Source: a virus. Taken from it: 64,000 bases of DNA. A program made the position numbers and the translations under genes. The notes under the pieces were generated by a model that saw only the letters and a program-made list of their open reading frames with translations, had not been told where the DNA came from and made no database searches. Numbering within the stretch: the stretch's first letter is position 1; each line of letters starts with the position of its first letter. Shown here one piece after another: positions 11,518 to 50,625 of this stretch. Location: positions 1 through 64,000 of IMG/VR virus record IMGVR_UViG_3300022925_002539. The stretch is one strand, 5' to 3'.

Positions 11518-12887
11518 TTAAATTAGTCATATTTGACTTAGATGGTGTCCTTATAGATAGCAAGCAGATTCATTACGAAGCTCTTAACCGTGCTTTGGGT
11601 GATGAGTATGCCATTAGTATAGAAGAACATTTAGCAAACTATGATGGTTTGCCTACCAGGTCCAAATTAAATATGCTATCAGAACGTAAAGGCTTGCCCA
11701 CGGATCGTCATGCGTCAATCGCCAGGGCCAAACAAAAGGCAACAGTTGATATACTAAAAGAGACTGTTGAACCTCGAGACGATTTTACGGACATGTGTCG
11801 CGAGTTGAAAGACAGAGGTTATACACTAGCCTGTGCAAGCAATGCAGTTCGCGACACAGTAAAAATGAGTTTGCTTAAATTAAACCTTATAGAATATTTT
11901 GATTTTTGGTATAGTAATGAAGATGTTGAAAAACCTAAACCACACTTTGAAATGTATTTTAAATGTATGCTTACTGCAAACTGTAAGCCTAGCGAAACAC
12001 TTATAATAGAAGACAGTCATATAGGTAGACAAGCAGTATTAGATAGTGGTGCAAATTTACTAGCAGTAGAGGATACTAAAGATATTTACTTGAGCAAAGT
12101 GCTAGATGCTATAGAAGAATATGAAGAACCTAAACGTAATATACCATGGAAGAGTAAAAAAATGAATGTACTAATACCAATGGCAGGTGCAGGAAGTAGA
12201 TTTGCTGAACAAGGATACACATTTCCTAAACCTCTTATAGAAGTAGGTAATAAGCCTATGATACAAGTTGTAGTAGACAATTTAAATATTGAAGCAAACT
12301 ACATTTTTATAGTGCAAAAAGAACATTACGAAAAGTATAATTTAGAAACAGTTTTAAATCTAGTAAAACCTGATTGTACCATTGTACAAGTTGAAGGTGT
12401 AACTGAAGGCGCTGCCTGTACAACGCTTTTAGCAAAGGAGTATATAGACAATGAAGACCCGCTCATCATCGCGAACTCGGACCAATTCGTCGAATGGAAC
12501 TCAAACGAAGTCCTTTATGCATTTTCAACAGAGGGCGTGGGAGGTGGCATCCTCACGTTTGAAAGCACACATCCAAAATGGAGTTATGCACGTACAGACC
12601 AAAATGGATGGGTTACCCAAGTTGCTGAAAAACAACCTATTTCGATTAACGCCACTGTTGGTATCTATTATTGGGCACGTGGTTGTGATTACGTTAGTTC
12701 TGCACTTCAGATGATTGATAAGAACATTAGAACTAATAACGAATTTTATGTATGTCCTGTGTTTAATGAATTTATACAAGGTGGAGGTAAAGTAAGGATT
12801 AAGCATATTAATCCAGAAGGAATGTGGGGATTAGGTACACCTGAAGATCTTACACATTTTTTAGCCAATTATAGTGGAACTTATTAA
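11514..12887 (+). CDS. HAD phosphatase - sugar nucleotidyltransferase fusion
   Basis: 457 residues in two enzymes. Residues 1-205 are a HAD phosphatase: DLDGV (8-12), ASN as motif II, KPKPH with the motif III lysine, and IIEDSHIG as motif IV. Residues 220-457 are a nucleotidyltransferase with MAGAGSRF at 223-230 and FPKPLIEVGNKPMI, the signature of NDP-sugar pyrophosphorylases. Fusing a sugar-phosphate phosphatase with a pyrophosphorylase suggests synthesis of an activated sugar or polyol for glycan decoration. Codon use is patchy; 12440-12560 is notably G+C-richer. No good ribosome site supports an internal start. Confidence 0.8.
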   Translation: MIKLVIFDLDGVLIDSKQIHYEALNRALGDEYAISIEEHLANYDGLPTRSKLNMLSERKGLPTDRHASIARAKQKATVDILKETVEPRDDFTDMCRELKDRGYTLACASNAVRDTVKMSLLKLNLIEYFDFWYSNEDVEKPKPHFEMYFKCMLTANCKPSETLIIEDSHIGRQAVLDSGANLLAVEDTKDIYLSKVLDAIEEYEEPKRNIPWKSKKMNVLIPMAGAGSRFAEQGYTFPKPLIEVGNKPMIQVVVDNLNIEANYIFIVQKEHYEKYNLETVLNLVKPDCTIVQVEGVTEGAACTTLLAKEYIDNEDPLIIANSDQFVEWNSNEVLYAFSTEGVGGGILTFESTHPKWSYARTDQNGWVTQVAEKQPISINATVGIYYWARGCDYVSSALQMIDKNIRTNNEFYVCPVFNEFIQGGGKVRIKHINPEGMWGLGTPEDLTHFLANYSGTY

Positions 12888-13417
12888 TTTGCTAACGGAT
12901 TGTCTAATGCCCGTTGTATTTTACGCATAAGTCTATCTTCTAGTTCTTTAGTATCACGATTCACTGTTTCTCTCAAACTATCTCTTTTAGTTTCAAATCT
13001 ACTTTCGGCATCAGTTATCATGTTACGGACATCGTCCACACTTTTACGAACCATGTCTTCTGTTCTGTCTGCTTGTTGTTCAATACGTAGTATATCATCA
13101 CGCAACCCGCCTTTGATGTCACGTGTATATTCTACAGTGTCTTCCATTTTGGATTCCATGATTTGCATACGTTTGTCATATGCATTGATTTTTGCTTCGT
13201 ATTCTTCTTGTTGTTCTACAAATTCTATAGCCTGTTCTACTTTTTGATACATTAAAAAGCCACCATACAATGCACCAAGTACACTACCAATAACTGCAAT
13301 AAGAGCAGATATTGACATAAAACTAACTTTGAAGCCAAGGATACGGAACTGTTTATTCTTTAAGTTCTCTATACCTTCTTCCATGTTTTCAATTTCTTCA
13401 CCTAAATCTTTTGCCAT
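12884..13417 (-). CDS. membrane-anchored coiled-coil protein
   Basis: 177 residues. A short acidic N-terminal helix (EEIENMEEGIENL) is followed by one membrane segment (about 31-57, SALIAVIGSVLGALYGGFLM). A long charged coiled coil then runs to the end (EQQEEYEAKINAYDKRMQIM onward). It has a GGAGAAATAAC ribosome site and is last of the minus-strand exported-protein cluster. The architecture resembles spanin-like or membrane-tether proteins, but no family is recognised. Confidence 0.6.
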   Translation of the reverse strand: MAKDLGEEIENMEEGIENLKNKQFRILGFKVSFMSISALIAVIGSVLGALYGGFLMYQKVEQAIEFVEQQEEYEAKINAYDKRMQIMESKMEDTVEYTRDIKGGLRDDILRIEQQADRTEDMVRKSVDDVRNMITDAESRFETKRDSLRETVNRDTKELEDRLMRKIQRALDNPLAN

Positions 13418-13418
13418 G

Positions 13419-13850
13419 TTATTTCTCCAAACCTTGTTTAGATTGGCTTTGTAATTCTCTTAACTTTTTAAGTTCTTGCTCTAATTTTAAAACTTCCAAT
13501 CTTTTCTTCTTTAATTCTAATTGATAGAGTGTGTTACAGTTAATACGTTCTTTAGGACCGTCAAGCGGTATTGTGATTCTTGCATATACTCCAACATCCT
13601 TAGTACTGTTGCCTATAGTTGTATTGTCGTCAAAAGGACTTTGATAGTTGTCTATTATACCAGTCACACCAAATTCCAAATTGGTACTACCACCAATAGC
13701 ATTTTGGCAATCTAAATCGCCTGCTTTAAATTTATCGCTAGAATAATTACCCGATGCGTTTGGTAATTGAAGATTTAATGAACTGCTATTGGCGAATGCT
13801 GTGCTAGATAAAACTGTAAGTGTTAGTGTTGTAAATACAAATTTTTTCAT
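13419..13850 (-). CDS. exported protein with C-terminal coiled coil
   Basis: 143 residues. Residues 1-20 form a signal peptide ending AFA before NSSS. The mature region is beta-like and contains two cysteines (DLDCQNAIGG and RINCNTLYQ), with a repeated glycine/asparagine-rich pattern. The last 35 residues are a Lys/Glu/Leu coiled coil. It lies 2 nt from its neighbours and belongs to a five-gene exported cluster. It does not match a family I can name. Confidence 0.65.
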   Translation of the reverse strand: MKKFVFTTLTLTVLSSTAFANSSSLNLQLPNASGNYSSDKFKAGDLDCQNAIGGSTNLEFGVTGIIDNYQSPFDDNTTIGNSTKDVGVYARITIPLDGPKERINCNTLYQLELKKKRLEVLKLEQELKKLRELQSQSKQGLEK

Positions 13851-13852
13851 AC

Positions 13853-14236
13853 CTATTCATGCTTGAATCTAGAACATATTTTAGATGATATACTTGAAGA
13901 TTTTAAATCCTCATTCCTCATCTTTGACCTACTACATACGTATTCAGCATTGTATTTGTCAACTTCTCTAATATAAACATCTACTTCTGCACGTTCCAAA
14001 TATTTTATATTCAATATTGTATATTGAGATACAAATGGAATAGGTCTCCAGTCTTTATCGAACACTCCTATCTCATAATATTCAACATCATTCCTTTTAT
14101 TGAAAATTTGCATACGGGTGACAATTAAATCATCCATATATGCATAACTCCATTTAGGATAAGTTGGAGTCATCTCATGACTAAAAGCACCATGAGAAAA
14201 CAGAATCAACCATAATGTTATAAAATATTTATACAT
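13853..14236 (-). CDS. exported Ig-like protein, possibly chaperone-like
   Basis: 127 residues with a signal peptide ending near GAFS-HE. The mature part (RMQIFNKRNDVEYYEIGVFD, then DWRPIPF, then AEVDVYIREVD) has the strand spacing of the first domain of a PapD-type pilus chaperone, with a late cysteine pair (YVCSRSK and SKICSRF). This resemblance is by pattern only. It starts at the base after the pilin-like gene stop, which makes a chaperone and subunit pairing attractive but unproved. Confidence 0.5.
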   Translation of the reverse strand: MYKYFITLWLILFSHGAFSHEMTPTYPKWSYAYMDDLIVTRMQIFNKRNDVEYYEIGVFDKDWRPIPFVSQYTILNIKYLERAEVDVYIREVDKYNAEYVCSRSKMRNEDLKSSSISSKICSRFKHE

Positions 14237-14740
14237 TTACTTTGCTACACACACCGCTTCAATTGTTGCTGAATAGTTACCACCTGGAAATGCTTTGTTT
14301 CCACCATTTGTAGCAACCGAAGTAGACTTAAACCATGTAGAACCAGTTGCGGTTAGATCAAACTGTGTAGTTTGTCCAGATACTGTCTTTGCACTTTCAT
14401 AACCTGCCATGCCTGTTGCATCACTTACGCTACTAACTTCTGTAGAGCCTGTCCATGATACTGTATCATTAAGTGACGGGCTAGTACTAAATGAAGTTGG
14501 TGTAGTAATTTGTGCATAATAAGCATCAGCCAATGTTACATCATATCTTACAATAGGCTGTACACCACCGTCGGCGGCAGCTGTTGTTAGTGTATAAGCA
14601 TTTGGGTTTCCATATGTACCTGGTGTATCAGTTGTTATTACACAACGTGATTGCACAGTTCCACTTATTGGTACATCAACAGCTTGTGCTGATAATGTGA
14701 ATAAACTCATAGCAACTATTATACTTGCCTTTTTGAGCAT
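14237..14740 (-). CDS. exported pilin-like or SCPU-like protein
   Basis: 167 residues. A clear signal peptide ends SAQA before VDVPISG. One cysteine lies near the mature N-terminus (VQSRCVITT) and one at the very end (IEAVCVAK), preceded by GGNYSATIEA. Cys near both ends with a terminal G-x-Y-x-x-T-x strand is the pattern of fimbrial/spore-coat-U type beta proteins. Low-complexity Thr/Ser/Ala sequence fills the middle. An AGGAGAG ribosome site precedes it. The pilin reading is inference. Confidence 0.5.
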   Translation of the reverse strand: MLKKASIIVAMSLFTLSAQAVDVPISGTVQSRCVITTDTPGTYGNPNAYTLTTAAADGGVQPIVRYDVTLADAYYAQITTPTSFSTSPSLNDTVSWTGSTEVSSVSDATGMAGYESAKTVSGQTTQFDLTATGSTWFKSTSVATNGGNKAFPGGNYSATIEAVCVAK

Positions 14741-14749
14741 TTTTCTCTC

Positions 14750-15643
14750 CTATTTGTATTGCTGAGAAATCATTTTCTCATGCAATATCTGTTGTGCTAA
14801 GCCGTTTCTCAACCCGGCTTTGCTATCTGGTAGTTTAGCATCTACCAATCTAATTGTTTCTTTGTACTGACCACCTGGTATAGTTGCGGCAAGATACGTA
14901 TTATTAATCTGATTTTGCATAATATTATTCATTTGTTCTATTCTTTGATTTTCTGCAAAAAGTGCTGCAGTATCAGATGCTGACATTAATTTTTCTAATC
15001 TATACTTTCTCTTCTTTTCTTCAGCTTCTTCTTTTTCTTTTTCTTCTTCCTCAGCTAGTCTTTCTTCATTTTCTTCTATAGATAATTTTTCCTCATCGTT
15101 TAAATTAACAAACTCATCTTTTGTAGCATCATATAAATCATCTAGATTAACTGTAGGTACAACAGGCACTGGTGTCTTATACCCTGGACAACTTGGACTA
15201 AATTGTGGGTCATAACAAGGATCAACTTTGTAACTGTAGATAACACTCGCATCATCTACAGTACCTGTACCCTCTACTTCTATAGAACCATCTCCCCATG
15301 CTTCTCTAGGGATATCACCTATTCCAATAACCTTTCTAACTTCTATTCCTCCTGGTGCACCTGACCAGTCTTCTGTATCTCTAAAAACATATCCAGTACC
15401 GTTTGCATTTTTATTTTGTACATGAACTTTCATATCATCTTCAGGATTTTTATTTGCAGTGTATCTATAAAATACTCCATTAATATCTAAGCCAGGTGGT
15501 GCAGGTAGTACATCTTTCATACTCCAACTGTGTCCGCTTTGAGCAGCATTACCAGTCGTACCATAATATGGTGCAATGTTATCAGAGTAACAATAGTAGG
15601 GATAAAATCCCACCAATACTCCAAGTAGCAGCTTTTTTAACAT
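14750..15643 (-). CDS. exported protein with acidic-basic helix
   Basis: 297 residues. The signal peptide is MLKKLLLGVLVGFYPYYCYS. The mature N-terminal 150 residues look beta-rich with two Pro/Cys turns (DPCYDP, PSCPGYK). Residues about 185-225 form a highly charged helix of Glu/Lys repeats, followed by a helical C-terminus. Its start overlaps the upstream gene by 62 nt in another frame, so that stretch encodes both the signal peptide here and the membrane tail there. Function unknown; probably periplasmic. Confidence 0.65.
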   Translation of the reverse strand: MLKKLLLGVLVGFYPYYCYSDNIAPYYGTTGNAAQSGHSWSMKDVLPAPPGLDINGVFYRYTANKNPEDDMKVHVQNKNANGTGYVFRDTEDWSGAPGGIEVRKVIGIGDIPREAWGDGSIEVEGTGTVDDASVIYSYKVDPCYDPQFSPSCPGYKTPVPVVPTVNLDDLYDATKDEFVNLNDEEKLSIEENEERLAEEEEKEKEEAEEKKRKYRLEKLMSASDTAALFAENQRIEQMNNIMQNQINNTYLAATIPGGQYKETIRLVDAKLPDSKAGLRNGLAQQILHEKMISQQYK

Positions 15644-16127
15644 CTACTTGTTCTTCCTTACCGTTCTTTTCATGTTTCTTTTTATCTTCGTGTGATTCCC
15701 AACCAATCTTGGCTGCCTCTCCAATTTTACCTTCATAAGGACATGGTGTACCTGCCATCATCATAGCATCAAATACTTTCTTATCCTGACACATTACACT
15801 AACTGCAGCAACTTTCATGCCCATGTCATATAGTGTCTTTGCATTTTTTAATCTTATACAGTTGTCTTCTGTAAATGTAGTACCTGCACTTATACCTAAT
15901 ATCTGTGTTTGTACTGCACCGGCAACACCAATTGTACATAAATCACTATTACTGCCACTACTAAACTGCGGACTAATAGCACTCGGTGGTGGTGATTTTA
16001 CAGTTGTTTCCATATTTCCTTCAGTAATAATTTTACTGTTCGTTGTGCTTTCTGTTACTATTGTTTCTGCATTAGCCATGCCAATGAAGAATACAGCTAG
16101 GCTGTAAATAAATATTTTTCTAATCAT
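15582..16127 (-). CDS. exported, membrane-tailed conserved phage protein
   Basis: 181 residues. The signal peptide is MIRKIFIYSLAVFFIGMANA. The mature region holds five cysteines (DLCTIG, NCIRL, MCQDK and PCPYEG among them) and a helical NAKTLYDMGMKVAAVSVMCQ stretch. A final hydrophobic run (WSIGGILSLLLLL) could insert in a membrane. I recall this cysteine pattern in several marine phages, always without function. First gene of the exported cluster, behind a late-type element at 16168. Confidence 0.65.
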   Translation of the reverse strand: MIRKIFIYSLAVFFIGMANAETIVTESTTNSKIITEGNMETTVKSPPPSAISPQFSSGSNSDLCTIGVAGAVQTQILGISAGTTFTEDNCIRLKNAKTLYDMGMKVAAVSVMCQDKKVFDAMMMAGTPCPYEGKIGEAAKIGWESHEDKKKHEKNGKEEQVDVKKAATWSIGGILSLLLLL

Positions 16128-16175: not shown

Positions 16176-16238
16176 TAAGCCTCTCTTTTAATAAATTTAT
16201 ACAAATATTTATAGGTTGTTTGTCGTATTTTCCAGCGA

Positions 16239-16338: not shown

Positions 16339-17394
16339 ATGTTTGATAACAGTATACATCGTATTGGGTTTGCATGTAAGTATTTTCATCCAGACCGTAC
16401 ACTAAAGAAAAAACAGTTAGAAGAAATAGAACGTCCACTTAATGAACGTACTACAACTATTACATGGCTTAACAGACAGACTAAAGAAGTTGCAGAACAA
16501 CGTTTGTGGGATATTATGCAACACAATATTAAAAGTGTTGAAAGACTAATTACTTACGTAGGGAGTTTACCTAATGAGTTACGAATGGTTCGATTGGGCA
16601 GTAGCATATTGCCTGCTTACACTGAGTCTAGTTGGAGTTACTATTGGCAGTTACCTGATGTACGCCAGTATCTCGAAACACATCTTGCACCTGTCGGGGA
16701 TAAAGCTCGTGCTCTTGATGTACGGATTAGTATGCACCCTGGTCAGTTTACTGTGCTTGCAAGCGATAATCCAGATATTGTTGATAGGAGCATAGAAGAA
16801 TATGAATATCACACCGATGTCCTCAGGTACATGGGATATGGCAAGTCCTTCCAGGACGCCAAATGCAACGTACATATCGCAGGTAGAAAAGGTCCACAAG
16901 GCATCATTTCAATCCTCCCAAGACTTTCTCCGGAATCGAGAAATGTCCTTACAATCGAGAATGATGAGAATTCATGGGGACTGGATGCGAGTCTCGAACT
17001 TACGGAACACTGTGCCCTCGTTCTCGATATACACCACCACTGGGTTAAAACGGGTGAATACATCTCGCCCCTGGACGAAAGAGTATCTCGCATAAAAGAC
17101 AGTTGGCGAGGTGTAAGGCCTGTCATACATTACAGTGTCAGCAGAGAAGATTACCTAGTTGATCATTGTTCAATAACAAAACCTAATTACAATACTCTAC
17201 TTGAAGACAATTACAAAAAAGCTAAACTAAGAGCCCACAGTGACATGTACTGGAATTCTGCAGTTAATGAATGGGCAATACAATTTAACAAAGAATTTGA
17301 CATTATGTGTGAAAGCAAGTTCAAACAAGTAGCATCAATTGACTTTTACAATCAAATGTACCAACAGAATATAAGTGCTAATTTATTTAAATAG
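16339..17394 (+). CDS. uvdE: UV-damage endonuclease
   Basis: Nicks DNA 5' of UV photoproducts and other lesions. The 351-residue protein has the family landmarks: RIGFACKYF at the start, ISMHPGQFTVL in the middle, VLTIENDENSWG, and LDIHHHWV with metal-binding histidines. The length is normal (about 300-400). There is no Shine-Dalgarno, and +1 coincides with the ATG, so it is probably leaderless. The stretch 16796-17110 uses many C/G-ending codons (GTC, CTC, TCC, GAC), unlike the flanking AT-rich codons, suggesting recombination with a foreign uvdE allele. Confidence 0.9.
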   Translation: MFDNSIHRIGFACKYFHPDRTLKKKQLEEIERPLNERTTTITWLNRQTKEVAEQRLWDIMQHNIKSVERLITYVGSLPNELRMVRLGSSILPAYTESSWSYYWQLPDVRQYLETHLAPVGDKARALDVRISMHPGQFTVLASDNPDIVDRSIEEYEYHTDVLRYMGYGKSFQDAKCNVHIAGRKGPQGIISILPRLSPESRNVLTIENDENSWGLDASLELTEHCALVLDIHHHWVKTGEYISPLDERVSRIKDSWRGVRPVIHYSVSREDYLVDHCSITKPNYNTLLEDNYKKAKLRAHSDMYWNSAVNEWAIQFNKEFDIMCESKFKQVASIDFYNQMYQQNISANLFK

Positions 17395-30842: not shown

Positions 30843-31250
30843 ATGAAACAAATCGATTTAAACAAATACAAAGAATTCGTACAAGCAGTTACAAGTGCTG
30901 AATCCAACAATGTGGGTGACATGAAAACTGCGGTAGACAATCTTGAAGACAGTGGTGTAAATGTAAGTTTACTACTGACTGGTGCAGTAGGTATCAGTGC
31001 AGAAGGTGGTGAGTTTATGGAAATTGTAAAGAAGTGTATATTTCAAGGCAAACCACTTAACGAAGAAACACAGTATCATGCTAAAAGAGAACTAGGTGAT
31101 ATTATGTGGTATTGGATAAATTCATGCCGTGCATTGAATCTTGATCCAAACGAAGTAATAGCAGAAAATGTTAAAAAGTTAGAAGCACGTTACCCAGGTG
31201 GTAGTTTTGATGCTTTCTATAGTGAGAATAGAAAAGACGGAGATTTATAA
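30843..31250 (+). CDS. mazG: MazG-like nucleotide pyrophosphohydrolase
   Basis: 135 residues. The four-helix MazG core shows GISAEGGEFMEIVKK followed by KRELGDIMWYW, giving the ExxE and ExxD metal-binding residues of the family. The C-terminal NLDPNEVIAENVKKLEARYP is also typical. Members hydrolyse (d)NTPs or alarmones; phage copies are thought to alter nucleotide pools or ppGpp. The gene is early by promoter and overlaps the membrane protein after it by 1 nt. Confidence 0.85.
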   Translation: MKQIDLNKYKEFVQAVTSAESNNVGDMKTAVDNLEDSGVNVSLLLTGAVGISAEGGEFMEIVKKCIFQGKPLNEETQYHAKRELGDIMWYWINSCRALNLDPNEVIAENVKKLEARYPGGSFDAFYSENRKDGDL

Positions 31251-31933
31251 TGAATAGATCAGCATATGCGACAACTAGTTATCAGTATGATGAAGGTTTA
31301 CGTAAATTTATGTTGAATATGTTTAACCACACTGCTATGGGATTAGCAGTAAGTGGTGTTGTTGCTTATTTTGTTTATGCAACAGGATTAGTATACTCAT
31401 TAATGAGTGGTCCACTAGCATGGGTAGTAATGTTAGCACCATTGGGTATGATTTTTTGGTATAGTTTTGCAGGACGTAATTGGGAACTATCTACTACAAA
31501 GAACTTTTACTATGCATTTACTGCCGTAATGGGTATAGGATTAAGTGCATTATTTGCAGTTTATACTGCCTATAGTTTAGTTCAAGTTTTCTTCATTACA
31601 AGTGCAACTTTTGCTGGTGCAAGTATATATGGATATAGTACTAAAAAAGATCTAACTTCAATGGGTAGTTTTTTAATAATAGGACTAATTGGAATAATAA
31701 TTGCTAGTATTGTAAATATCTTCTTAGCAAGCAGTGGATTACATTTTGCAATTAGTATTATTGGTGTACTTATATTTACAGGTTTGACTGCCTGGGACAC
31801 ACAAAGAGCTAAACAAATTTATAACGAATGTGGTGGCGATGAAAGATACGGAGTACAGTTTGCATTAAGTTTATATCTTAATTTTATCAACTTATTCCAA
31901 ATGTTATTAGCACTACTAGGAAATAGAGAATAG
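31250..31933 (+). CDS. Bax inhibitor-1 family membrane protein
   Basis: 227 residues with seven hydrophobic segments. The N-terminal LRKFMLNMFNHTAMGLAVSGVVAYF and the C-terminal TAWDTQRAKQIY are signatures of the BI-1/YbhL/YccA (TMBIM) family. Bacterial relatives interact with membrane proteases such as FtsH or conduct Ca2+/H+. A phage copy could modulate host membrane proteolysis or ion balance (inference). Early promoter, co-transcribed with mazG. Confidence 0.85.
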   Translation: MNRSAYATTSYQYDEGLRKFMLNMFNHTAMGLAVSGVVAYFVYATGLVYSLMSGPLAWVVMLAPLGMIFWYSFAGRNWELSTTKNFYYAFTAVMGIGLSALFAVYTAYSLVQVFFITSATFAGASIYGYSTKKDLTSMGSFLIIGLIGIIIASIVNIFLASSGLHFAISIIGVLIFTGLTAWDTQRAKQIYNECGGDERYGVQFALSLYLNFINLFQMLLALLGNRE

Positions 31934-42222: not shown

Positions 42223-43653
42223 ATGATTGAAATGATTACAGCTTTAATGGCTGGCGTACTATATGGATTACTAATAGGCATAATACCTAGTGCAGGTGCT
42301 ACTACAGGTTTGGTTGCACTGTTTGGTTTTATCAGTTACTTTGTTCATGAACCATATTTAGGTGTAGTATTCTTAATGGCAGTGGTTGCTGCTAGTACCA
42401 CAGGCGATAGTTTTACTTCAATATTGTTAGGAATACCAGGAGCAAACAGTGCCGCTGCTACTATGGTAGATGGCTTTCCACTTGCACAACAAGGCAGAGC
42501 AAGTTATGCAATCAGTGCCGCCGTTACCACTTCAACAGTAAATGGTTTAATTTGGGGTTGTTTAGTGTTCTTATTATTACCTTGGTATACAAACTTATTG
42601 ATGATTATTGGTGTACCTGAACTTTGGGCATTTACTGTACTTGCACTAGCAACAGTTGGATTTATAAGTACAAAATTTTGGTTCCGTAGTTTGTGTGCAA
42701 TTTGTATTGGTATATTTTTAGGCATGGTAGGAGTTAACCCAGAAACAAATGAGCCACGTTTTACTGGTAGTTGGTTTTATTTAGAAGATGGTATACAACT
42801 TATGCCAGTAGTTGCAGGACTATTTGCTATTCCAGAATTAATTAAAGGACTGTTCAATAGAACTAAGACTGCCACTATTGTAAAAAGCGAATTAACAGAA
42901 GGTGTCAAAGAATTTTGGCGTAATCGTTGGTTAGGACTACGAGGCGGTTTTATTGGTGCTTTTATAGGTTTACTGCCTGGACTAGGAGGTGCTATGGCAG
43001 ATTGGATGGCATACGGAAGTGCAGTCGCTAGTAATCCAAATGAACGTTTTGGTAACGGCAATATTAAAGGTGTTATAGGACCAGAAGGTGCTAATAATGC
43101 ACAGAAAGCAACAAGTATGATTCCAACAGTTTTATTTGGTATACCAGGTGCACCGTTTGCGGCAGTTTTAATGAGTTTGTTTATGTATCTAAATTTTGAA
43201 TTAGGCACACCAGATTTAGCCTACGACACAGAATTTTTTACAAGTATGACATTTGGCTTTTTAAGTGCAACAGTTATAGTTGCAATATTGTGTATATTTT
43301 TAATAAAGCCAATTAGTTATATTACCAGTGTCCCTTACAAATATTATTTTCCTATTTTACTAGCAGTAATTGTATGGAGTAGTATGCAGTATACAGGAGG
43401 CTGGGAAGATTTTGTAATGTTAGCTGTATTTTCCTGCATAGGATTTGTTTGCAGACATTACAAATTTAGTAGACCTGCTCTACTAATAGGATTTATATTA
43501 TCCGAAAAAATAGAAAAACTTTCCATACAGATGTTTGCTTTGTATGACATTGAAAGTTTAATTACAAGACCGATATTTATGGTATTAGTTATTTTTATTA
43601 TAGGTATCTTTGCATATAGTTTTATAAAGAAAGGAAAAATCGATTATGCGTAA
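42223..43653 (+). CDS. tctA: tripartite tricarboxylate transporter TctA subunit
   Basis: 476 residues, about twelve hydrophobic segments. The two inverted-repeat signatures of TctA are readable: IPSAGATTGLVALFGF with GDSFTSILLGIPGANSAAATMVDGFPLA, and LLPGLGGAMADWMAYG with MIPTVLFGIPGAPFAAVL. The length is only slightly short of cellular TctA (about 500). It forms the membrane channel for carboxylates delivered by TctC. The overlap with tctC (8 nt) and the shared leader make it an operon. An auxiliary uptake system in a phage is uncommon. Confidence 0.92.
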   Translation: MIEMITALMAGVLYGLLIGIIPSAGATTGLVALFGFISYFVHEPYLGVVFLMAVVAASTTGDSFTSILLGIPGANSAAATMVDGFPLAQQGRASYAISAAVTTSTVNGLIWGCLVFLLLPWYTNLLMIIGVPELWAFTVLALATVGFISTKFWFRSLCAICIGIFLGMVGVNPETNEPRFTGSWFYLEDGIQLMPVVAGLFAIPELIKGLFNRTKTATIVKSELTEGVKEFWRNRWLGLRGGFIGAFIGLLPGLGGAMADWMAYGSAVASNPNERFGNGNIKGVIGPEGANNAQKATSMIPTVLFGIPGAPFAAVLMSLFMYLNFELGTPDLAYDTEFFTSMTFGFLSATVIVAILCIFLIKPISYITSVPYKYYFPILLAVIVWSSMQYTGGWEDFVMLAVFSCIGFVCRHYKFSRPALLIGFILSEKIEKLSIQMFALYDIESLITRPIFMVLVIFIIGIFAYSFIKKGKIDYA

Positions 43654-44707
43654 ATTTTTAATTGCATTATTTTTAATGCTTAGTACACCAGCACTTGCTG
43701 ATTATACAATGATAGTACCACAAAAGCCAGGAGGAGGTACAAGTGTGTGGGCACAGATCGTGGCTACAGAAATGGAAAAATATTTAGATGAAAAGATTGT
43801 TATCAAACACATTAGAGGTGCTAGAGACATTCCTGGATTCAACAAGTTTCACAATGAACTCCAAAATGATCCAAAAACAATAATGGTATCTCATGGTGGT
43901 AATGGTGTAAGTTTCTTAAACGAAAAGGTAGATTACAACTATGCCGACTATGAAAGTGTAGGATTAATGAATCTAAATATTATTGTTGCATCACGTAAGG
44001 ATCATAATCCATACGGTGGAAAGAAAACTGCTTTTGCTGCTGGTAGTGGAATGATTCCAGAAGGCATTGCAATGACATTACTAAAGTGTGGAGCAGGACT
44101 TACTACAGAACAATACATTGACTGTTTCAAACGTAAAGTAAACTGGGTAAAAGGTATGTCAGGTGGCGAAAGACGTTTAGCATTTAAACGTGGCGAACTA
44201 GACGGTACTAGAGAAAATCCAGCTGCTTTTAAAAAACATGTTCAACCTACTATTGAACAAGGCGTTGCAGGATTATGGTTTCACCATGGGATACTACAAG
44301 CAGATGGTTCACATGCTGATGATCCAAATTATCCAGGATATCAAATGGAGCAATTATTCTATGCAGCAAATAGAACAAAACCAGAAGGTGATTTATATGC
44401 CGCCTATAAACTTGTAAAAAGTTTCCGTGATGGTATGCAAAAAGCACTATGGGTTGGAAAAGGAAATCCAAATAAAGCGAAACTAATCGCAGCATTAAAA
44501 CAAGTTGCTACAAATCCTGAAAGTGTCAGTGCAGTAGAAAAGAAAGTTGGCAAGTATCAATGGCTAATTGGCAATGCCGGTGATGCTCATAGAGATACAC
44601 TGATGAAACTTATTACACCTGAAGCATTAAGTACACTTGTGAAGTTTAATAACGAAGCATTTGGAATTAAAGCTGTGTATAAGGATACATTACTTGCCCA
44701 AAAATAA
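43646..44707 (+). CDS. tctC: TctC-like periplasmic binding protein
   Basis: 353 residues with a signal peptide (MRKFLIALFLMLSTPALA). IVPQKPGGGTSVWAQIVATEMEKY is the TctC/Bug-family entry motif (the P-x-x-GGG-x-D/T loop). YADYESVGLM follows as the usual second domain crossing. The family binds tricarboxylates, dicarboxylates or other acids for TctAB. It sits immediately after tctA. Ligand not readable. Confidence 0.85.
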   Translation: MRKFLIALFLMLSTPALADYTMIVPQKPGGGTSVWAQIVATEMEKYLDEKIVIKHIRGARDIPGFNKFHNELQNDPKTIMVSHGGNGVSFLNEKVDYNYADYESVGLMNLNIIVASRKDHNPYGGKKTAFAAGSGMIPEGIAMTLLKCGAGLTTEQYIDCFKRKVNWVKGMSGGERRLAFKRGELDGTRENPAAFKKHVQPTIEQGVAGLWFHHGILQADGSHADDPNYPGYQMEQLFYAANRTKPEGDLYAAYKLVKSFRDGMQKALWVGKGNPNKAKLIAALKQVATNPESVSAVEKKVGKYQWLIGNAGDAHRDTLMKLITPEALSTLVKFNNEAFGIKAVYKDTLLAQK

Positions 44708-47400: not shown

Positions 47401-47925
47401 ATGCAAGAAAATTACGATAAATGTATAGAAACAATACTACATCATGAAGGTGGATATGTAAATCATCCAAGCGATCCAGGTGGTGAAACTAACTTAGGTG
47501 TTACACTAAAAGTTTATGAAGCATGGTGTGCTGAACAAGATATAGAACAAAAAGATATGCGTGATCTTATTGTTGAAGATGTTGCACCAATTTACAAAAA
47601 GAACTATTGGGATAGAGTGAAAGGTGATCAATTACCAGCAGGATTAGATTTATGTGTTTTTGATTTTGGTGTTAATGCAGGTACAGGACGTAGTGCAAAA
47701 TACTTACAAACAATGATTGGTACAGTTGCAGACGGAGGCATTGGTCCAAACACACTTAAAAAATTAGATGAATATATAGAAGAAAACGGATTAACAGATA
47801 CCATAACAAATTTTCAACAAGCAAGACAGGAATACTATGAAAGTCTTAGCACATTTGAAACATTTGGCAGAGGATGGACTCGACGAGTAGATGAAACTAC
47901 AGAACTAGCACTTAACATGATTTAG
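47401..47925 (+). CDS. endolysin, GH108 muramidase
   Basis: 174 residues. TILHHEGGYVNHPSDPGGETNLG starts with the EGGY motif whose Glu16 is the catalytic acid of glycosyl hydrolase family 108, N-acetylmuramidases. FDFGVNAGTGRSAKYLQ and a peptidoglycan-binding region (GGIGPNTLKKLDEY) follow. There is no signal peptide, so it needs a holin. It opens the lysis cassette that continues to 49266. Confidence 0.9.
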   Translation: MQENYDKCIETILHHEGGYVNHPSDPGGETNLGVTLKVYEAWCAEQDIEQKDMRDLIVEDVAPIYKKNYWDRVKGDQLPAGLDLCVFDFGVNAGTGRSAKYLQTMIGTVADGGIGPNTLKKLDEYIEENGLTDTITNFQQARQEYYESLSTFETFGRGWTRRVDETTELALNMI

Positions 47926-48359: not shown

Positions 48360-48516
48360 GAAATTTATTACAAGTAGATTAGAAGAAAGAACAACCTGGG
48401 ACGGTGCTATGCTAATAGGCTTAGGTCTAATAGTTTTAATTGCAGGTCCGTTTGCAAAACTTGCAGCTTACATCGCAATAGGTTATGGTGCTTGGACAAT
48501 TTACAAGAGTGAATAA
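48352..48516 (+). CDS. small membrane protein, candidate holin
   Basis: 54 residues from ATG 48352, chosen for AAGGAG 7 nt upstream. The N-terminal half is polar and basic; the C-terminal half is hydrophobic (MLIGLGLIVLIAGPFAKLAA, YIAIGYGAWTIY), one or two membrane helices. Between endolysin and spanins, a holin or antiholin role is likely but not shown. Confidence 0.6.
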   Translation: MIKKFITSRLEERTTWDGAMLIGLGLIVLIAGPFAKLAAYIAIGYGAWTIYKSE

Positions 48517-49016
48517 TGGCTAGACTGTATCTTGTTTTATTACTTTTAGGTGTACTAGGAGGCGTTGGTTACGGCGCCTACGGGTACTATACAAGTACAC
48601 AACAAAGAATACAAACTCTATCTGAAAATAATGCTAAACTAGAAGTAGCAATTGAACAAAGTGAAAAAAGTGTAAATTTATTAAAAAGTGAAGCAGCAAA
48701 GAATGCAGAGCTTAGTAAAAATTTACAAGTACAATTACAAAAAGCAGAAGCATATGGAGACGATCTAAGAAATAGATTAAGGAAACTTGATCTACTAGCA
48801 GATGCTATTTCAAATGCTAAAAATTTAGAAGGACGTATGAATGGTGCAACAGCTAAACTGTGGCGTGAAATCATGGGCGAAACTGGCAACAATACTGGCA
48901 GTACTAGCGATCTTCCTTTCTGGTTGCAGCGGTCTAAAACCGGAACCGGAAGTGAAGGTAGTGACACAAGTACAAAAAGTGACAGTACCGATAGTAGCCA
49001 GACCAAAGCCGATTAA
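48516..49016 (+). CDS. i-spanin (Rz-like)
   Basis: 166 residues. An N-terminal membrane anchor (LYLVLLLLGVLGGVGYGAYGYY) is followed by a periplasmic coiled coil (SENNAKLEVAIEQSEKSVNL onward) and a Ser/Thr-rich tail. This is the inner-membrane spanin layout. The o-spanin gene starts inside it in another reading frame, as in lambda Rz/Rz1. Spanins disrupt the outer membrane after the endolysin acts. Confidence 0.75.
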   Translation: MARLYLVLLLLGVLGGVGYGAYGYYTSTQQRIQTLSENNAKLEVAIEQSEKSVNLLKSEAAKNAELSKNLQVQLQKAEAYGDDLRNRLRKLDLLADAISNAKNLEGRMNGATAKLWREIMGETGNNTGSTSDLPFWLQRSKTGTGSEGSDTSTKSDSTDSSQTKAD

Positions 49017-49266
49017 CCTTACAGATACACAAGTATATGTTGTAAACAAAGGTAATCTGGAAGCGTTTATTGCTGAGTTCACAGAGCAAAATGGTGAACT
49101 AGCCTTTGTTGCACTAAGCATTGACACATACGAAAACCTAGCACTTAATATAAGTGAACTAAGACGTTTCATAAATCAACAAAATGAGATTATAGTCTAT
49201 TATGAAAAAGCAATGACACCGGATGAAACAAACGAAAAAGATAAATCTACAATCAAAACTGACTGA
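48841..49266 (+). CDS. o-spanin lipoprotein (Rz1-like)
   Basis: 141 residues. A hydrophobic signal with lipobox LSGC (in LAIFLSGCSG) predicts an outer-membrane lipoprotein. The first 176 nt lie in another frame inside the i-spanin gene. A proline-containing extended region (LKPEPEVKVV, IVARPKPINL) follows, then a helical part unusual in length for Rz1. The pair with the preceding gene is convincing. Confidence 0.75.
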   Translation: MVQQLNCGVKSWAKLATILAVLAIFLSGCSGLKPEPEVKVVTQVQKVTVPIVARPKPINLTDTQVYVVNKGNLEAFIAEFTEQNGELAFVALSIDTYENLALNISELRRFINQQNEIIVYYEKAMTPDETNEKDKSTIKTD

Positions 49267-50044: not shown

Positions 50045-50300
50045 CCGTCTATGGATCTATACTGCAATAGTTGGATCATTATTTGGAGCTGCATTTTTAT
50101 TTTGGTTTAAAGACACACGTATGGCTACATGGGGTGTACAAAAGTTTGATGCTACACTAGAATATCTTGCAATACGTTGGGGCTGGACTTGGCTACAGAA
50201 TGATCCAAATGCTTGGCGTATAAAATATCCTAAGATAACAAATAAAATTGACGAACTTGAAGCCAGAATTCAAGAATTAGAGGAGAGAAATAATGGCTGA
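50013..50300 (+). CDS. small membrane protein with coiled-coil tail
   Basis: 95 residues. One hydrophobic segment near the start (LWIYTAIVGSLFGAAFLFWF), a Trp-rich middle (IRWGWTWLQNDPNAW) and a C-terminal coiled coil (ITNKIDELEARIQELEE). It overlaps both neighbours. No family recognised. Confidence 0.6.
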   Translation: MWEMIERMADDRLWIYTAIVGSLFGAAFLFWFKDTRMATWGVQKFDATLEYLAIRWGWTWLQNDPNAWRIKYPKITNKIDELEARIQELEERNNG

Positions 50301-50625
50301 AGAAATTAAACAAGCAGGTTTTCATCCTGCAGATACAAACGGTGACGGAAAAGTAACCGAAGAAGAACAGGCAATGTACTTAGAGTTCAAACGCAAAGAA
50401 CTAGAAGATGCAGATGCTATGCGTGATGCACAACGTAGCATGGCATGGTTTGCACTGTTTGGTATGTTGTTGTATCCTGCAATAGTACTAATAGCAAATA
50501 TAATTGGCATGGATCAAGCTGCTAAGATATTAGGTGACATGGCTGCAGTATATTTTGTTTCTGTTGCTGCTATTGTAGCTGCATTTTTTGGTGCACAAGC
50601 AGTAGGCAATACTAAGAAAAAGTAA
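50293..50625 (+). CDS. EF-hand membrane protein
   Basis: 110 residues. DTNGDGKVTEEEQ near residues 14-26 is a canonical EF-hand Ca2+ loop (D-x-N-x-D-x-K-x-x-x-E-E). A charged helix and two membrane segments follow (AWFALFGMLLYPAIVLIANI and AAVYFVSVAAIVAAFFGAQA). The topology resembles a holin with a calcium-sensing N-terminus; the role is inference. AGGAGAG before the ATG. Confidence 0.65.
   Translation: MAEEIKQAGFHPADTNGDGKVTEEEQAMYLEFKRKELEDADAMRDAQRSMAWFALFGMLLYPAIVLIANIIGMDQAAKILGDMAAVYFVSVAAIVAAFFGAQAVGNTKKK

Follow-up and report, generated by a model that had tools for sequence, protein, structure and literature searches.

The 64-kb window analysed here, which covers positions 1 to 64,000 of the IMG/VR virus record IMGVR_UViG_3300022925_002539 and is the start of that 101,579-base record, carries on its minus strand (12884-16127) six close-packed genes in the order A-B-S-P-D-C. 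The reading favoured here, held at about even confidence, is that this cassette is a late-expressed, Sec-exported envelope module of six proteins, organized around an usher-less chaperone-pilin pair (P and S) and possibly acting near lysis. A first-pass annotation had described five consecutive minus-strand reading frames and a sixth at 12884-13417, and these coordinates proved to be exact (Table 1).

A chaperone-type domain beside a probably pilin-like subunit

Structural models of P and S were made with AlphaFold2, and reached predicted local distance difference test (pLDDT) scores of 85 and 90, respectively. When the P model was used to search the Protein Data Bank (PDB) by fold, all six matches with E < 1e-3 were pilus chaperones, the best being DraB (E 2.3e-4), as were most of the top 50, and the best matches fell on the N-terminal domains of the periplasmic chaperones DraB, FaeE, FimC, SafB, Caf1M, and PapD. 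As judged from the predicted model, it is well supported that P represents a single PapD-type chaperone N domain with an immunoglobulin (Ig) fold; its 127 amino acids, signal peptide included, hold one domain only, rather than the two Ig domains of the pilus chaperones. The P proteins of the Vibrio phages described below also present, as noted by eye, the motif K-(V/L)-R-L-Y-W-P near their end, which may resemble the way in which domain 1 of the classical chaperones ends.

At the level of sequence families, the window P is a weak match for phrog_25455, and its homologues reach up to E 2e-6, with 30 of 62 below E 0.01. No match was found in Pfam or NCBIfam for the P of the window or of the Vibrio phages, i.e., these profiles place neither protein in a chaperone family. 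The suggestion of the first-pass annotation that this protein is PapD-like is thus borne out strongly by the fold matches to pilus chaperones, but not by the sequence-family profiles.

One other feature of P is a pair of cysteines, found in every P group compared, in which Cys101 and Cys121 are invariant and lie one in each of the last two predicted strands. In the FGL-type chaperones, a disulfide links the F1 and G1 strands, a bond that is absent from the other chaperone families (PMC4133393), and the cysteine pair of P is placed like this disulfide in the model, the bond itself being putative.

The best PDB fold match of S is the CFA/I pilin CfaB (E 4.9e-3, probability 1.00, template modelling score about 0.45), and its matches also list the PapG pilin domain, FimG, CS17, and CsuA/B, amid unrelated beta proteins and with modest scores. 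The modelled fold of S is probably nearest to that of the pilins, an assignment weaker than that of P. None of the 61 S members matched a pilin or SCPU sequence profile. The earlier idea of a pilin- or SCPU-like protein is probably right at the fold level, with weaker support than for P, and is not borne out by sequence profile.

Export signals and the late promoter

Export was assessed by a simple signal-peptide rule (charge, hydrophobic core, and an AxA-like site) rather than by SignalP. The window A, B, S, P, and D proteins all follow this rule as Sec-type (5/5), as do 301 of the 307 distinct homologues (A 54/58, B 62/64, S 61/61, P 62/62, and D 62/62). The same rule flags 12 of the 70 open reading frames of the window, and several of those outside the cassette are false positives by eye. 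Lipoboxes were found on none of the A, P, or C homologues and on few of the other cassette homologues.

As far as its genes can tell, the record probably represents part of the genome of a large T4-like phage, because its DNA polymerase is closest, within the phage collection, to those of two jumbo phages, Sinorhizobium Phosso and Agrobacterium Atu_ph07 (48-51% identity), and because a close copy of the cassette, with an S that is 86% identical, lies on a 328 kb contig. The T4-type late promoter element TATAAATA occurs as an exact match upstream of A. Among 56 distinct related loci, 25 have an exact copy within 200 nt upstream of A, whereas shuffled sequences would give 1.6. Over both strands of the window, there are four copies of TATAAATA where 13 would be expected, a depletion that looks as if stray late promoters were selected against, and three of the four (8543, 16206, and 23046) sit just upstream of genes. 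A second TATAAATA, at 14226-14233, was considered as a promoter and dismissed as a chance occurrence, as it falls inside the start of P. The cassette is probably a late operon.

Divergent from the cassette, over the same promoter region, there is also a UvdE-family UV endonuclease gene (16339-17394, plus strand; PF03851, E 1.5e-38).

Conservation of the cassette

The searches of viral contigs returned 152 loci, many of them overlapping, which correspond to 99 distinct loci. All six genes are present in 81 of these 99, and in 80 of the 81 they follow the order A-B-S-P-D-C on one strand; in the exception (L058), the locus ends after D, and what had been taken for C is a spanin-like gene that flanks the cassette at its opposite end. 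In all six genes, silent differences far outnumber amino-acid changes (nonsynonymous rate, dN, 0.07-0.34; synonymous rate, dS, from 0.6 to saturation), a pattern by which the six-gene cassette is judged to be under purifying selection. The kept gene order and the dN/dS pattern are more than chance.

The gaps between the cassette genes are mostly of a few bases. The overlap of A and B measures 41-80 nt, in an identical relative frame, in each of the 43 homologous pairs that were compared, and the same bases therefore encode the hydrophobic tail of A and the signal peptide of B. The N-P-L ending of C is likewise invariant in its homologues (n=51).

Several claims of the first-pass annotation hold on these grounds. 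Its five signal peptides are recovered, its membrane-anchored sixth protein is C, which has one membrane helix and, in addition, a coiled coil, and the protein with a hydrophobic tail is A. The spacing that it had described as tight is even tighter, given the A-B overlap, and the single late-type element that it assigned to the block is that at 16206-16213, which is enriched upstream of A in the relatives. Neither of the outcomes that it had named as damaging was encountered: the export signals did not fail under the simple rule, and instead of strong matches to tail or baseplate proteins, there are weak coiled-coil matches of C only.

Table 1. Features of the six-gene cassette, in window coordinates
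Feature	Coordinates	Strand	Description
Late promoter element	16206..16213	-	T4-type, TATAAATA, exact match, 78 nt upstream of A
A	15582..16127	-	Exported 181-aa protein with four conserved Cys and a hydrophobic C-terminal tail; phrog_20531 (unknown function), E 8e-15
A/B overlap	15582..15643	-	62 nt; hydrophobic tail of A and signal peptide of B in different frames
B	14750..15643	-	Exported, 297 aa; N-terminal part beta-rich by eye, acidic linker, conserved C-terminus
S	14237..14740	-	Exported 167-aa subunit, probably pilin-like; phrog_25895, E 1e-5
P	13853..14236	-	Exported, 127 aa; predicted single PapD-type chaperone domain; Cys101 and Cys121
D	13419..13850	-	Exported, 143 aa; C-terminal helix; phrog_37374, E 1e-7
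C	12884..13417	-	177 aa; one membrane helix, coiled coil, conserved NPL ending

The S-P-D trio in other phages and in bacteria

The three PHROG families matched by S, P, and D of the window (phrog_25895, phrog_25455, and phrog_37374) are exactly those of three adjacent genes of the Vibrio phage pVp-1. D is the best conserved marker of this trio, and its relatives were found in 42 Vibrio phage records when the window protein was the query, and in 204 records when the query was from an Erwinia phage, these being mostly phages of Vibrio, but also of Klebsiella, Serratia, Erwinia, Stenotrophomonas, and Raoultella. P- and S-like genes flank D in all 12 of the loci inspected, where some of the D or P genes lack such an annotation and were identified directly in the nucleotide sequence. 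Half of these loci have the order S-P-D (pVp-1, VhaS-tm, Ceto, 1.205.O, D71, and 51E28.4), and the other half P-D-S (Erwinia pEp_SNUABM_01, Klebsiella FBKp24, Eowyn, Miami, and Vibrio 1.081.O and 2.275.O).

When the profiles of the marine and Vibrio proteins were compared over their full length, S matched at 96.5% (E 7e-10) and P at 86.9% (E 4e-6), these E-values being for single pairs and not for a database, and D was linked across all groups at 97-98%. The control profile pairs gave weak matches, mostly in the signal peptide. In the enteric jumbo phages, no sequence homology of S and P to their marine counterparts was detectable beyond the signal peptide, and their assignment draws on where the genes lie, on the pattern of cysteines, and on a single fold match, in which the window P model retrieved a 116-aa Eowyn protein that has the length of, and may correspond to, the gene assigned as P by position. 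The recurrence of the S-P-D trio in Vibrio and enteric phages follows from the PHROG identity, the profile comparison, and this Eowyn match. The Vibrio trio is homologous to that of the window, adjacent, and in the same order, and differs in that no A, B, or C was seen beside it.

Vibrio phages encode, after S-P-D, a conserved putative lipoprotein of very small size (SGCTFNFTIDTDYA.., SSCTINLQIDTDYA..; L159:5287-5445, L177:5088-5264, and L175:4275-4460).

The trio exists outside of obvious phages too, given the row of genes found on a chromosome of Photobacterium chitinilyticum (L183:3145-6178, plus strand), which starts with an exported gene the size of S and another one like it, and continues with P, D, and an EAL-domain gene. 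Here, P and D are supported by comparison (91.7% and 99.0%), and the two pilin-like genes by layout alone. Among bacteria, D was found in one of 369 genomes of one class, that one being the metagenome-assembled genome on which the search was centred.

The A-B-C set

No significant family was found for A, B, S, P, or D in Pfam, NCBIfam, or PADLOC, and PDB sequence-profile searches with S, P, D, and A returned nothing. Against phages, neither a megablast of 12 kb nor a tblastn of B, S, and P produced a match, and a defence-system library gave only coiled-coil matches of C. The matches of C to tape-measure PHROGs are weak and of the coiled-coil kind (best E 0.012), with no other structural PHROG match in the cassette, and those to Rz-like PHROGs are very weak (E about 0.1), although a coiled-coil layout, as in spanins, is present in C.

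On the other hand, A is clearly homologous to proteins of the Pelagibacter phages HTVC115P, HTVC023P, HTVC202P, HTVC033P, Baldr, and Mosig and of Roseobacter phages, in which A is followed by another long protein, with an NPL-ending membrane coiled-coil protein nearby, and S-P-D is missing. By comparison, the window C has relatives in the C proteins of the Roseobacter phages and in that of HTVC115P; those of the other pelagiphages have the NPL ending too, but are only weakly similar (38%). The C-terminal part of B is related to HTVC115P gp53 (hhalign 83%, E 9e-6). The set found in HTVC115P, HTVC023P, HTVC033P, Mosig, and CRP-207 thus resembles that of the window in its homologous A, its NPL-ending C, and an exported or long protein at the position of B, but lacks S-P-D, and except for gp53 its B-position proteins are not detectably related to the window B. 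Because A and C recur without S-P-D in these phages, the cassette looks like two modules in one operon, with A-B and C enclosing S-P-D.

The "lysozyme" neighbours of the roseophages were considered as evidence of lysis and rejected, as these genes encode C-type coiled-coil proteins with the NPL ending. This is the case of CRP-810 gp51 and CRP-207 gp73 (L160:6219-6641 and L161:3292-3873), annotated as lysozyme, which read as membrane coiled-coil proteins that end in NPL, and whose annotation is probably wrong.

Possible mechanism and alternative explanations

In the mechanism considered here, the late promoter would lead to the production of the six proteins late in infection, and S would enter the periplasm as a pilin-like subunit. 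P would fold and hold S, most likely through donation of its final (G1) strand in the manner of the classical pilus chaperones. D would take part as well, and a trans-envelope scaffold might be formed by A and B together with C, the coiled-coil protein of the inner membrane. The resulting complex would alter the periplasm or the outer membrane of the host around lysis. We infer the strand donation, the formation of a complex with D and A-B-C as partners, when the proteins are made, and how they affect the envelope.

One of the closest known parallels is the chaperone-usher pathway (chaperones PapD, FimC, Caf1M, DraB, and FaeE; subunits CfaB, PapG, FimG, and CsuA/B), in which a chaperone-fold gene likewise adjoins a pilin-fold gene and both products are exported; the two Cys of P sit where the FGL chaperones of this pathway have theirs, one in each of the last two predicted strands. 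The cassette differs in its one-domain chaperone, in being usher-less and phage-encoded, in the presence of D and A-B-C, and in the lack of a sequence-family match. The usher family PF00577 was absent from this record and from six relatives of up to 328 kb, which may be fragments, with a positive Escherichia coli control.

The context of the cassette bears on its timing. A lysis-type gene, i.e., one for a cell-wall hydrolase or for a two-transmembrane holin-like, spanin-like, or lysozyme-like protein, is present in the fetched flank of 62 of 79 distinct loci, a raw count in which some of the gene labels were given by eye. The late promoter and these neighbours lean to a role late in infection more than to a classical early superinfection exclusion.

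Several points weigh against an envelope module of the kind favoured here. P has one domain where the known pilus chaperones have two, S gave fold matches of no more than moderate strength (best E 5e-3), A, B, and D stand without an assigned fold, and no usher was found in the record or in the six relatives. In the window phage itself, the lysis genes lie about 31 kb from the cassette, and the figure for lysis neighbours stands without its background rate.

Receptor masking, or superinfection exclusion, is an unlikely alternative, in which the module would block or cover an outer-membrane receptor, either from the periplasmic side, as Llp of phage T5 does, or externally, and so protect the infected cell and keep the progeny off the debris. 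In six Vibrio phages, S-P-D comes directly after a gene of ~770-970 aa that ends an apparent tail region and is possibly receptor-binding, although this neighbour has no assigned function (phrog_10818). Llp, a periplasmic exclusion lipoprotein, provides a precedent for the export of a phage product to the periplasm or to the outer membrane, but it is a single early lipoprotein (PMC9586334), as opposed to six late proteins, none of which has an obvious lipobox in the window. Exclusion proteins are usually early (PMC9586334), whereas this operon has a late promoter, and six proteins are a large investment for the blocking of a receptor.

It is quite unlikely that S polymerises into an adhesive surface fibre that clumps or decorates the infected cells, in a manner similar to the "sibling capture" idea for phage curli. 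The adjacency of a pilin-like S and a chaperone-like P would suit such a fibre, as would the Photobacterium row, with its P, D, pilin-like genes by layout, and EAL-domain gene, but the chaperone has one domain and no usher was detected in the record or in the six relatives, unless it lies outside of the fragments or is supplied by the host. The suggestion of the first-pass annotation that the block may form a periplasmic or surface structure, for host-envelope remodelling, superinfection exclusion, or an appendage, is supported in part, by the export signals and the pilin- and chaperone-like folds, while its surface appendage meets this same lack of an usher. The curli (type VIII secretion system, T8SS) operon of pelagiphages (PMC9599517, PMC7029224, and PMC9004378) is likewise a multigene outer-envelope module of phages, found in unrelated marine phages and of debated function, but its proteins are different, and the cassette has no CsgG, CsgF, or curli repeats. 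This operon looked like a likely parallel, and identity with it was rejected, as none of the six proteins had a Csg match in Pfam.

A dedicated lysis machine is very unlikely, in which A-B-C, with or without S-P-D, would be an additional spanin-like or outer-membrane-breaking complex. The lysis-type genes near the cassette in the 62 loci fit this idea, real ones are found nearby in HTVC023P, HTVC033P, and pVp-1, and C is a membrane coiled coil with its faint Rz-like matches. However, the window already holds a spanin-like pair at 48516-49266 (by eye), the A, P, and C homologues have no lipobox and the others few, and the supposed lysozymes beside the set in roseophages are in fact C proteins.

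Finally, parts of the virion, i.e., tail or capsid decoration, are hardly credible, despite the late promoter, the position of the cassette genes after tail-region genes in Vibrio phages, and the fact that Ig-like domains are common on virions, given that nearly all homologues of five separate genes keep their signal peptides, that the modelled fold of P is specific to periplasmic chaperones, and that no structural PHROG match is convincing.

Other genes of the record

The lysis genes of the window phage are on the plus strand, and include a GH108 endolysin gene (47401-47925) and, at 48516-49016 and 48841-49266, a membrane coiled-coil protein and an overlapping lipoprotein gene, which form the spanin-like pair. 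A two-transmembrane EF-hand-like protein (50293-50625, plus strand) is encoded in related phages often directly after C.

A gene for a TctA-family tricarboxylate transporter (42223-43653, plus strand; PF01970, E 1e-96) is followed directly by one for a signal-peptide protein that has the look of a substrate-binding partner and no Pfam match (43646-44707, plus strand), and the two may possibly represent a phage-borne uptake system. Also on the plus strand are a Bax1-I family membrane protein (31250-31933; PF01027, E 9e-55) and, further along the record, a PnrA-like exported substrate-binding protein (L172:1716-2783, record 84716-85783; PF02608, E 1e-54). A 1525-aa exported protein with a lipobox-like N-terminus and a subtilase domain (L172:10047-14624, plus strand, record 93047-97624; PF00082, E 2e-26) has a C-terminus that looks like an outer-membrane barrel, as in an autotransporter-like protease carried by a phage.

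Significance

No description of a phage-encoded pair of pilus chaperone and pilin was found in the open-access literature searched, which leaves out most subscription journals, and the novelty here would be chaperone-pilin chemistry in an unfamiliar, usher-less viral setting. A broader proposal, put forward tentatively and with less than even confidence, is that S-P-D is an undescribed usher-less chaperone-pilin system of several unrelated phage groups, which in large marine phages is joined with the exported A-B-C in one late operon. In the host, it would build a strand-complemented structure located in the periplasm or at the outer membrane, and so represent an unrecognised stage of virus exit or envelope takeover.

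Three PHROG families that had carried no functional assignment are brought together in a common genetic module, which extends over about 200 records of cultured phages and numerous marine contigs, and two of them gain a fold-based identity, as pilin-like and PapD-domain proteins. Should S and P indeed act through strand donation, the pair would be a chaperone-subunit system reduced to a minimum, with one domain and no usher. The module also points to a late step, so far unstudied, at which phages may alter the Gram-negative envelope, and the cultured Vibrio phages make it testable now.

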